DNA of 64,000 bases, taken from Aeromonas rivipollensis (lineage in GTDB: Bacteria > Pseudomonadota > Gammaproteobacteria > Enterobacterales > Aeromonadaceae). The notes under the pieces were generated by a model. It saw nothing but the letters and a program-made list of their open reading frames with translations. It made no database searches and was not told the origin of the DNA. Where the stretch lies: assembly GCF_037811135.1 (NCBI RefSeq), contig NZ_CP149130.1:864501-928500 (forward strand). Reading direction: 5' to 3'. Positions 49,523 through 55,814 of this stretch are shown one piece after another; positions within the stretch are counted from its first letter, which is position 1, and each line of letters opens with the position of its first letter. A program made the position numbers and the translations under genes.

Positions 49523-49616
49523 AGTTGTGCAAAAAGGCAAACCGGACGAAAGTCCGGGACGCAAAGCCTCCGGTCTAAGGGTCAAAGTACCTAGGATAGC
49601 GGGGTCACCACAGGTT
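49523..49616 (+). promoter_or_regulatory. c-di-GMP-I (GEMM) riboswitch 1, upstream of chitinase
   Basis: The conserved class-I core is complete: GGCAAACC (49536-49543); a P2 stem GGAC capped by the GAAA tetraloop and closed by GTCC; then GGGACGCAAAGCC; then TCCGGTCTAAG, CTAGGATA in P3; and AGCGGGG (49599-49605). P1 is formed by TTGTG and CACAG. The chitinase start is 107 nt further. A short hairpin CCATGG-GCCAAG-CCATGG (49624-49641) and a weak GGCA/TGCC hairpin before TTTTT (49665-49685) lie in the expression platform. Confidence 0.93.
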
Positions 49617-49723
49617 GTATCGTCCATGGGCCAAGCCATGGTGGCGATGATGTCTGCGTTACCTGGCAGGTTGCGTTGCCTTTTTCGTTGTTAATTCCAA
49701 TAACGAAATAAGGAAGTTCAAAT

Positions 49724-52321
49724 ATGTTAAGTCCAAAACTTTCCCTGCTGGCGCTCCTGGTCGGGGGTCTCTGTGCTACCTCCGCCTTCGCCGCTGCCCC
49801 GGGCAAACCCACCATAGGCTCGGGCCCCACCAAGTTCGCCATCGTCGAAGTCAATCAGGCCGCCTCTGCCTACAACCAGCTGGTGACAGTCCACAAGGAT
49901 GGTGCCCCCGTCAGCGTGACCTGGAACCTCTGGACCGGTGACGTGGGTCAGACCGCCAAGGTGCTGCTCGATGGCAAGGAGGTGTGGTCAGGCCCGGCTT
50001 CCGCCGCTGGTACCGCCAACTTCAAGGTGACCAAGGGGGGCCGCTACCAGATGCAGGTCGCCCTGTGCAACGCCGACGGCTGCACCCTCTCCGACAAGAA
50101 GGAGCTGATGGTCGCCGATACCGACGGCAGCCACCTGGCACCGCTCAATGCGCCCCTCAAGGAGAACAACAAGCCCTACGCCAACAAGTCCGGCAAGGTG
50201 GTGGGGGCCTATTACGTGGAGTGGGGCGTCTATGGCCGCAAGTTCACCGTGGACAAGATCCCGGCCCAGAACCTGACCCACATCCTCTACGGCTTCACCC
50301 CCATCTGCGGCGGTAACGGCATCAATGACAGCCTGAAAGAGATCTCCGGCAGCTTCGAGGCCCTCCAGCGCTCCTGTGCCGGTCGTGAAGACTTCAAGGT
50401 CTCCATCCACGATCCCTGGGCCGCCGTCCAGATGTCCCAGGGCAACCTCAGCGCCTGGGATGAACCCTACAAGGGCAACTTCGGCAACCTGATGGCGCTC
50501 AAGCAAGCCCGTCCGGACCTCAAGATCCTGCCGTCGGTCGGGGGGTGGACCCTCTCCGATCCCTTCTACTTCCTGGGGGACAAGACCAAGCGCGACACCT
50601 TCGTCGCCTCGGTCAAGGAGTTCCTGCAGACCTGGAAATTCTTCGACGGGGTGGACATCGACTGGGAATTCCCGGGCGGCCAGGGGGCCAACCCCAGCCT
50701 GGGCGGCCCGAGCGATGGCGCCACCTATGTGGTGCTGATGAAGGAGCTGCGGGCCATGCTCGACGAACTGGAAGCCGAGACCGGCCGCCAGTATGAGCTG
50801 ACCTCGGCGATCAGCGCCGGCGGTGACAAGATTGCCAAGGTCGATTATCAGGCGGCCCAGCAGTACATGGACCACATCTTCCTGATGAGCTACGACTTCA
50901 GCGGCGCCTTCGACCTGACGAATCTGGCCCACCAGACCAACCTCTTTGCCTCCAGTTGGGATCCGGCCACCAAGTACACCACCGACAAGGGCGTCAAGGC
51001 GCTGCTGGGTCAGGGGGTGACACCGGGCAAGATAGTGGTGGGTGCGGCCATGTATGGCCGTGGCTGGACCGGAGTGAAGAACTACCAGGCCGGCAATCCC
51101 TTCACTGGTACCGCCACCGGACCTGTGACCGGCACCTGGGAAAATGGCGTGGTGGATTACCGCGACATCGTCAACAACCGCATGGGCGCAGGCTGGGAGC
51201 AGGGCTATGACGAGTCGGCCGAGGCCCCTTATGTGTTCAAGGCCAGCACTGGGGATCTCATCAGCTTCGACAACGATCGCTCGGTCAAGGCCAAGGGGCA
51301 GTACGTGCTGGCGAACCAGCTCGGTGGCCTGTTCGCCTGGGAGATAGACGCGGACAACGGCGACATCCTCAACGCCATGCACGAGGGGCTGGGCCACGGC
51401 GAGGGTACACTGCCGCCGGTCAACAAGCCGCCTGTGGCCAATGCCGGCAGCGACCTGAGCGTCACGGGCCCGGCCGAGGTAACCCTCAACGGCTCCGCCT
51501 CCCACGATCCGGAAAGCGGCGTGCTGACCTACAGCTGGAAGCAGGTCTCCGGACCCCAGGCCAGCCTGCTGGACGCTACCCAGGCCAGGGCCCGCGTGGT
51601 GCTGGATGCCGCCACTACCGACATCAATCTGGTGTTCGAGCTGACAGTGACCGACGATCAGGGACTCTCGGCCAAGGATCAGGTGGTGGTGACCAACAAG
51701 GCACCACAGCCGAACCTGCCCCCCGTGGTCAGCGTACCGGCCAGTGCGACCGTAGAGTCCGGCAAGCAGGTGACCATCAAGGCCACTGCGTCCGATCCGA
51801 ACGGTGATGCCCTGAGCTATCAGTGGAGCCTGCCAGCGGGTCTCACCGCCACCGGTCAGGACAGTGCGACCCTGGTGGTCACAGGCCCGAGCGTCACCAG
51901 CGACACCGCCTATGACCTGACCCTGATGGTGACTGACGGGGCACTGGACGCCAGCGCCGGCACCCGCCTGACCGTCAAGCCGGCCAGCACGGGGGGCGGC
52001 TGCGAGACAACCGATCCCGATGCGGCCAACCATCCGGCCTGGAACGCCAGCACCGTCTACAACACCAATGACAAGGTGAGCCACAAGCAACTGGTGTGGC
52101 AGGCCAAGTACTGGACCCAGGGCAACGAGCCAAGCCAGAGCGCCGATCAGTGGAAGCTGGTGAGCCAGGTGCAGCTCGGCTGGAATGCCGCTGTGGCCTA
52201 CAACGCCGGGGATCTCACCAACCACAACGGTCGCAAGTGGAAGGCCCAGTACTGGACCAAGGGCGATGAGCCCGGCAAGGCCGCCGTCTGGGTGGATCAG
52301 GGGGCTGCCAGCTGCAACTGA
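49724..52321 (+). CDS. secreted ChiA-type chitinase (GH18) with two PKD/Ig-like and two CBM5/12 modules
   Basis: This is an endochitinase-type enzyme of 865 residues. Order: signal peptide (cleavage after SAFA, residue 23); a ChiA-type FnIII-like N-domain (about 24-135); the GH18 barrel (about 150-555) with the catalytic motif DGVDIDWE at 308-315, Glu315 being the acid, as in Serratia ChiA; two Ig/PKD-like domains (about 566-660 and 665-755); and two tryptophan-rich CBM5/12 repeats ([16 protein letters not shown]... and [12 protein letters not shown]...). Secretion probably uses the type II system. AAGGAAG lies before the ATG. Regulation by the upstream c-di-GMP riboswitch is expected. Confidence 0.95.
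51421..52318 (+). repeat. duplicated C-terminal module, copy 1 (chitinase)
   Basis: This part encodes residues 566-865 of the chitinase. It is homologous end to end with 54877-55771 in the metalloprotease gene, including an identical 46-nt run (52145-52190 versus 55598-55643). Confidence 0.88.
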
Positions 52322-55774: not shown

Positions 55775-55782
55775 TGACCATC

Positions 55783-55814
55783 AGGAATGGGGCCTTGGCG
55801 TCCCATTCCTTTTT
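55783..55814 (+). terminator. intrinsic terminator after the metalloprotease gene
   Basis: AGGAATGGG, ten bases, CCCATTCCT followed by TTTT. It shares GGAATGGGGCC and CCCATTCCTTTTTCC with the chitinase terminator. About 150 nt separate it from the next gene, and no third riboswitch is present there. Confidence 0.85.

Follow-up and report, generated by a model that had tools for sequence, protein, structure and literature searches.

A possible stepwise origin of a putative chitin-anchored metalloprotease gene behind the riboswitch of a decayed chitinase in an Aeromonas chitin locus

How does the gene of a secreted protease come to start behind the 5' end of a chitinase gene and to end in a chitinase tail? 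The question is raised by a 64-kb stretch of the Aeromonas rivipollensis genome (positions 864501-928500 of 4.55 Mb; hereafter the window, in whose own numbering coordinates are given), where two related units follow each other on the + strand. Unit 1 is made up of riboswitch 1, a cyclic di-GMP (c-di-GMP)-I aptamer (49526-49612; Rfam RF01051, 81.4 bits at a cut-off of 35), a ChiA-type chitinase of glycoside hydrolase family 18 (GH18) identified with Pfam (49724-52321), which ends in a PKD-PKD-CBM5/12-CBM5/12 tail (51413-52318), and an intrinsic terminator with a 12-pair stem and a T run (52329-52356). Unit 2 opens with riboswitch 2, again a c-di-GMP-I aptamer (52631-52716; RF01051, 75.3 bits, same cut-off), followed by a frameshifted relic of about the first 50 codons of a chitinase (52813-52960), called from translated matches to intact chitinase N-termini, and by the gene of a predicted secreted zincin protease (53087-55774). 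By open reading frame, domains and alignment, the latter encodes a leader peptide (recognised by eye), an Ig-like domain, an HExxHxxGxxH core and a chitinase-type tail (54878-55771); 3' of it, a hairpin and T run that look terminator-like by eye (55783-55814) resemble those of the chitinase and are spanned by the DNA alignment to that gene. The first-pass annotation, made from this sequence alone, had recognised the two units, their related terminators and the relationship of both ends of unit 2 to chitinase genes, all of which our analysis bears out. It explained them by tandem duplication of the riboswitch-chitinase unit, one copy then exchanging its catalytic core for that of a zincin and keeping the old tail in frame. 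Our comparisons lead us to favour, by a modest lean, a stepwise assembly of a chitin-anchored accessory metalloprotease, with conversion of its tail, deletion of a second chitinase and exchange of the gene as an allele.

The homology of the two tails, also claimed at first, is evident from 68% protein identity over 302 residues and from a DNA alignment (74.8% over 945 nucleotides, nt) that continues past the stop codon into the terminator; between the riboswitch regions of the two units, similarity is 80% over 117 nt. In favour of a core replacement are the similar terminators and the fact that unit 2 both begins and ends in chitinase-related sequence. The phylogeny of the tail, however, speaks against it: in a tree of the first PKD domain (44 rows) all five zincin tails formed one clade (support 97/96) rather than joining the chitinases of the same genomes, and constraining three zincin tails to group with the chitinase tails of the same three genomes was rejected (approximately unbiased test, p-AU 0.0019). 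The recent form of the replacement is thereby refuted, and an origin of the zincin tail by recent tandem duplication was rejected. Further points against this model are that the zincin is tailless in four of the nine genomes that have it and tailed, with no riboswitch 2 or relic, in two others; that its similarity to the chitinase is highest in the later tail, where zincin and chitinase rows mix; and that the zincin gene brings a start codon and leader peptide of its own, some 270 nt after the relic start. An ancient replacement, before the species split, draws some support from the relic and the first PKD being about equally distant from chitinases, but we consider a single duplication followed by an in-frame core swap to be improbable.

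These nine genomes come from a set of 37 of the genus, among which the ChiA-type chitinase was found in 35 (G029 and G035 have none) and a neighbouring M66 metalloprotease gene in 19; the loci compared are those of the 35 chitinase-bearing genomes, i.e., the window and 34 others. Matches to the zincin at E 1e-3 were obtained in 19 genus genomes, of which 10 cover only 50-63 residues of the Ig-like domain and were not counted. In all nine cases the zincin lies directly between the chitinase and the M66 gene. The tailless relatives that the first-pass annotation had proposed to look for are thus present within the genus (4/9), and three genomes, namely the window's, the same-species G023 and G002, combine the tail with riboswitch 2 and the relic.

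Considering the tests on the first PKD, the zincin tail appears to be old relative to the two-unit layout of the window. The first PKD of the four close zincins is 77-87% identical among themselves, 53-66% to the tails of first chitinases (chitinase 1) and 50-61% to those of second chitinases. Several results weigh against this view of the tail. Constraining four zincin tails to group with chitinase 1 of 11 close species was not rejected (p-AU 0.08), and a placement outside all other chitinase tails was neither preferred nor rejected (p-AU 0.395). Moreover, that the tail was lost and not gained in the tailless clade depends on G032, which sits on a long branch, and the zincin tree is rooted with little confidence (50/62), the branch to the outgroup being very long. 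The tail trees omit the tail of G025, which is split over two frames, and in the comparison of tail modules the chitinase 1 and 2 labels of G030 and G003 were assigned by hand.

The remainder of the tail tells of a more mixed history. Zincin-chitinase similarity is highest toward the CBM end, and in the CBM part the zincin rows are scattered among the chitinase rows. In a segment comparison covering 12 of the 35 first-chitinase tails, the first CBM of the G023 zincin is 95% identical in DNA to that of its own chitinase versus 62-82% to other zincins, and for the G010 zincin the own chitinase is the closest of the 12 in both the second PKD and the first CBM. This mixing looks like gene conversion with chitinase tails. 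On the adverse side, the own chitinase was the closest of the 12 in only 4 of 15 zincin-by-segment cases, so that the partners of conversion are mostly not shown. The run of 46 identical nt noted at first does exist (chitinase at 52145-52190, zincin at 55598-55643, coordinates computed from offsets), but it is not special to this pair of units: the window zincin has runs of 46 nt in common with two further chitinases (G000 and G023), one of 45 nt with that of G002 and of 44 nt with three others, and as at least six chitinases share 44-46 nt with it there, the run is uninformative on its own.

How, then, did riboswitch 2 and the relic come to precede the zincin? No intact chitinase frame is left in unit 2, only some 50 frameshifted codons; the relic matches chitinase in a frame other than that of its ATG, which opens a frame of 34 codons (52813-52917). 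Translated, it is 42-56% identical to intact chitinase N-termini over 32-51 residues (E 5e-12 to 1e-8, among the best 12 matches per genome for three genomes, in a very small search space and with no composition correction). Alignment of the DNA to one chitinase gives a weak signal, with one of three relics exceeding the best of 100 shuffles, and the assignment thus depends on the translated matches and on position. Most simply, riboswitch 2 and the relic would be the stub of a mostly deleted second chitinase, because 5 of the 35 loci hold at this same position an intact second ChiA-type chitinase with a riboswitch of its own. The stub does not resemble a recent copy of the window's chitinase, since it reads LGWGET where that chitinase has IGSGPT. 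Many other first chitinases read IGWGET, and this likeness, along with the evidence that the locus recombines, would fit the alternative that riboswitch 2 and relic are the 5' end of another strain's chitinase, brought in upstream of the zincin by recombination. So would the leader tree (built from the three unit 2 leaders and 29 of the 40 chitinase leaders in the 35 loci, the search pattern having missed some riboswitches), which counts against a resident second chitinase: it places the stub, on a long branch, beside the leaders of first and not of second chitinases. This makes the imported fragment a serious rival, yet a resident copy of the kind kept intact in five loci needs deletion and no import, and we judge the import unlikely.

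Whether riboswitch 2 still works is a separate matter, and the comparison of the three genomes that have it suggests that a still-functional c-di-GMP leader may have passed to the protease gene. Aptamer and leader differ at 7/180 positions versus 33/210 in the relic, at 11/182 versus 37/219 and at 7/180 versus 24/207 in the three genome pairs, which are not independent of each other (Fisher p 9e-5, 0.001 and 0.008, respectively). Versus the upstream spacer the corresponding p values are 0.63, 3e-4 and 4e-6. The segment corresponding to 52772-52812 of the window shows 0, 1 and 1 substitutions in the three pairs, and 5' of riboswitch 2 there is a promoter-like site (52579-52608, +; 9 of 12 consensus matches), both hexamers of which are identical across the three genomes in the alignment.

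The expression platform is less favourable. In unit 1, the ribosome-binding site of the chitinase is covered by a hairpin (49679-49713, +; -12.6 kcal/mol, z -3.77, equalled by 0 of 200 shuffles) that is a possible expression platform, the motif being visible by eye in most other chitinase leaders examined. Unit 2 has a weaker copy of it 5' of the relic ATG (52771-52804, +; fold of 52766-52818: -8.2 kcal/mol, z -1.24, equalled by 21 of 200 shuffles). These values are for single folds, a consensus fold from the MAFFT alignment of the start-site hairpin having given no structure, and a hairpin just 5' of the zincin start was no better than shuffles (z 0.59). Two observations tell against a working switch for the protease, that aptamer and leader of the same-species pair are not slower than the upstream spacer (p 0.63, above), and that the start-site hairpin is located at the relic ATG, some 270 nt upstream of the protease start. 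The frame opened by the relic ATG has 31-34 codons in the three genomes and ends 166-169 nt before the zincin start. An effect of c-di-GMP on the zincin would then have to act at a distance, for instance through read-through of the transcript. The position and weakness of the hairpin, the first loop of aptamer 2 (AAAA in the window versus GAAA in the same-species G023, a change that might weaken folding) and the zincins of six genomes that do without a second riboswitch would all suit a riboswitch 2 that is a dead leftover, in which case the zincin would owe its expression to some other start or to transcripts that continue from the chitinase, and would escape c-di-GMP control by this riboswitch. 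This is a possibility that we take seriously without holding it to be the likelier one, given the slower change of aptamer and leader than of the relic in all three pairs, the strong Rfam score and the promoter-like site upstream. The c-di-GMP control of the protease, which the first-pass annotation had claimed together with its targeting to chitin, is accordingly left plausible but weakened by where the hairpin lies, while the other half of that claim, a chitin-targeted protease beside a chitinase, is likely.

As for the protease itself, the zinc-binding motif (HELGHNLGLSH in the window, 54668-54700, + strand) and a downstream methionine (M550) are invariant in the eight aligned Aeromonas rows. 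Metzincins are defined by HExxHxxGxxH and a conserved methionine downstream, and in these rows the zincin satisfies that rule. Its tail reaches the cut-off for CBM5/12 (PF02839; 58 bits over two stretches, cut-off 26.2), and for the N-terminal Ig-like domain a profile search gave weak hits to Bacillolysin and Chitinase 60. Against the assignment as a metzincin protease stands that no peptidase model of Pfam reaches its cut-off, with 17.2 bits for M66 (PF10462, cut-off 20.6), 20.1 and 17.3 for the reprolysin-like M12B models (PF13582, cut-off 22.4, and PF13688, cut-off 27) and 17.9 for M43 (PF05572, cut-off 23), and that a relative in G243 lacks the glycine of the motif, though it keeps all three histidines, the glutamate and the downstream methionine. 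The idea that the zincin is a close paralogue of the neighbouring M66 protein was rejected, as a profile comparison aligned 17 columns, the zinc motif only. The zincin would represent an unclassified, probably chitin-anchored protease family beside the chitinase, with both proteolysis and chitin binding predicted; no description of it was found among the papers listed from open-licence PubMed Central, judged from titles and the starts of abstracts.

Of 394 genomes drawn from the order, 56 gave a match at E 1e-3; six of these matches were full-length, all within the genus, 49 were short matches to a domain or motif, and one, outside the genus, was partial but strong (G243, E 6e-50); among 369 genomes of the class there were 15 matches, full-length only in the window's own genome. 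A search of the plasmid collection returned no match, and spread of the zincin on plasmids was dropped as an explanation. In the G243 protein, the zincin core is 31% identical (residues 268-571) and is joined to Ig repeats and CBM5/12; of 24 genomes of its family, one had it, and the 15 kb compared there held no match to the chitinase. A wide occurrence of the tailed protease away from chitinases, named by the first-pass annotation as telling against its model, is seen only to the extent of this relative with CBM5/12 in one sampled genome. Relatives of the tail are widespread (E 1e-12 in 135 of the 394 genomes of the order), and at two loci of another genus the tail is found on a chitinase-like protein, for one of which Pfam confirms the ChiA type.

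Within the genus, the ratio of nonsynonymous to synonymous substitution rates of the zincin core is 0.18-0.34 over six pairs (0.18-0.33 for the window's core versus three relatives), as in a gene that is maintained but changes fast. Between same-species genomes, DNA identity is 92-98% for the chitinase versus 76-87% for the zincin stretch, and between the window and G002 the zincin core (87-95%) is similar to or closer than the chitinase (84-95%). The trees of the zincin and of a flanking kinase conflict, with zincin types interleaved on the kinase tree. Taken together, the contrasts in identity and the interleaving suggest that the zincin gene is probably exchanged as an allele. The zincin of G012, in which a TAG falls within the range used, was absent from two of the alignments and included in the tree compared with the kinase.

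From these results, unit 2 can be pictured as encoding a secreted metalloprotease that plays an accessory part in the Aeromonas chitin locus and would be anchored to chitin by its PKD-CBM5/12 tail and cut proteins on and around chitin while the chitinase attacks the polymer, as the second protease of the same kit. In the history that we favour, a tailed zincin would have resided in the locus before the two-unit layout arose, its tail being lost later in some species. The later parts of the tail would have been overwritten repeatedly by gene conversion with chitinase tails, either the own ones or those of related strains. A ChiA-type second chitinase with its riboswitch would once have stood between chitinase and zincin and have been mostly deleted, the part that was spared (riboswitch 2 with its leader and some 50 codons) now serving the protease gene as its 5' leader. 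The protease gene in turn would have passed between strains and species as an allele. At the level of sequence this history draws on the domain layout, the presence/absence pattern, the clade of the first PKD, the mosaic tail and the slower change of aptamer and leader; the deletion, the loss of the tail and an increase of protease expression by c-di-GMP, perhaps via transcript read-through, are steps that we infer. More tentatively still, as a reading that is somewhat less likely than not, we propose that a live c-di-GMP riboswitch outlived its chitinase and was taken over by the protease gene through deletion, while a shared, converting C-terminal tail aims the chitinase, the zincin and elsewhere the M66 protease at one polymer, which would make the locus an evolving kit that recombines sensors, cores and tails separately. 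If so, a riboswitch can switch to a new client gene when the old one is deleted, and the enzymes of a secreted kit may stay co-targeted by exchanging their binding tails; the probable protease family beside the chitinase would bear on how bacteria attack natural, protein-covered chitin.

The surroundings of the two units add further observations. Downstream of the zincin lies the gene of the StcE/TagA-type M66 metalloprotease (55965-58331, +; Pfam M66, E 3.4e-87), followed in the window by a methyltransferase-like gene on the opposite strand. Just 5' of the M66 gene, at 55926-55943, there is an inverted repeat (GGGCATGTGGACATGCCC), the core of which (GGCATGTGGACATGCC) is present in the five other genomes examined. 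Inside the gene, the stretch corresponding to 56281-56580 has 73% DNA identity between two same-species genomes, with 96% and 88% in the flanking stretches. In 6 of the 19 M66-bearing genomes (loci L054, L057, L059, L061, L062 and L064) the M66 protein itself carries a chitinase-type PKD/CBM tail, and in G008 the M66 gene is followed by that of a GH19 chitinase (L131:2925-4844), which has CBM5/12 and PKD. In G033, a GAF-GGDEF diguanylate cyclase gene (L057:6520-7752, minus strand; GGDEF 91.7 bits) lies between the two riboswitch-headed chitinases, and a c-di-GMP synthase is thus flanked by two c-di-GMP sensors; at this position G001 has a gap of equal size with similar sequence, and G034, by eye, resembles a deletion remnant. 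The three other c-di-GMP-I riboswitches of the window's genome adjoin genes for a GbpA-like protein, a GH18-similar protein and a sigma-54-type regulator, the names GbpA-like and sigma-54-type being read off the sequences with no family search. The unit 1 chitinase surpasses the Pfam cut-offs for ChitinaseA_N (184 bits) and GH18 (277 bits), and has PKD and CBM5/12 matches as well.

In comparison with known proteases, the zincin shares the HExxHxxGxxH core and downstream methionine with the M66 (StcE/TagA), reprolysin (M12B) and M43 families; it differs from them in that its matches to all of these stay below cut-off and that the profile alignment to M66 extends over those 17 columns only. A protease joined to chitin-binding modules has reportedly been described in the chitinolytic marine bacterium Alteromonas sp. 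O-7. The closest counterpart of the locus is the Chi18A-Pro2K-Chi19B cluster of Aeromonas sp. SK10, in which, according to passages of that report, an 869-residue GH18 chitinase with a chitin-binding end is likewise followed by a metalloprotease (PMC8658002). There, co-cloning the metalloprotease gene with the chitinase raised chitinase activity 6.2x, a rise that was not obtained when the two clones were added separately (PMC8658002). By size and by order (M66 and then GH19, as in G008), the SK10 metalloprotease Pro2K most likely corresponds to the M66 gene and not to the zincin; the passages on the cluster mention neither a zincin nor a second riboswitch, and its text does not contain the word riboswitch (PMC8658002). 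On the side of regulation, two further reports place c-di-GMP-I riboswitches 5' of Aeromonas hydrophila chitinase genes (PMC6366702) and the Vc1 riboswitch upstream of gbpA in Vibrio cholerae, where it is reported to regulate downstream expression positively with c-di-GMP (PMC4744006). RNA class and chitin context are the same here, but unlike in those described cases the second aptamer of the window heads a decayed chitinase start and then a protease gene (PMC6366702, PMC4744006).

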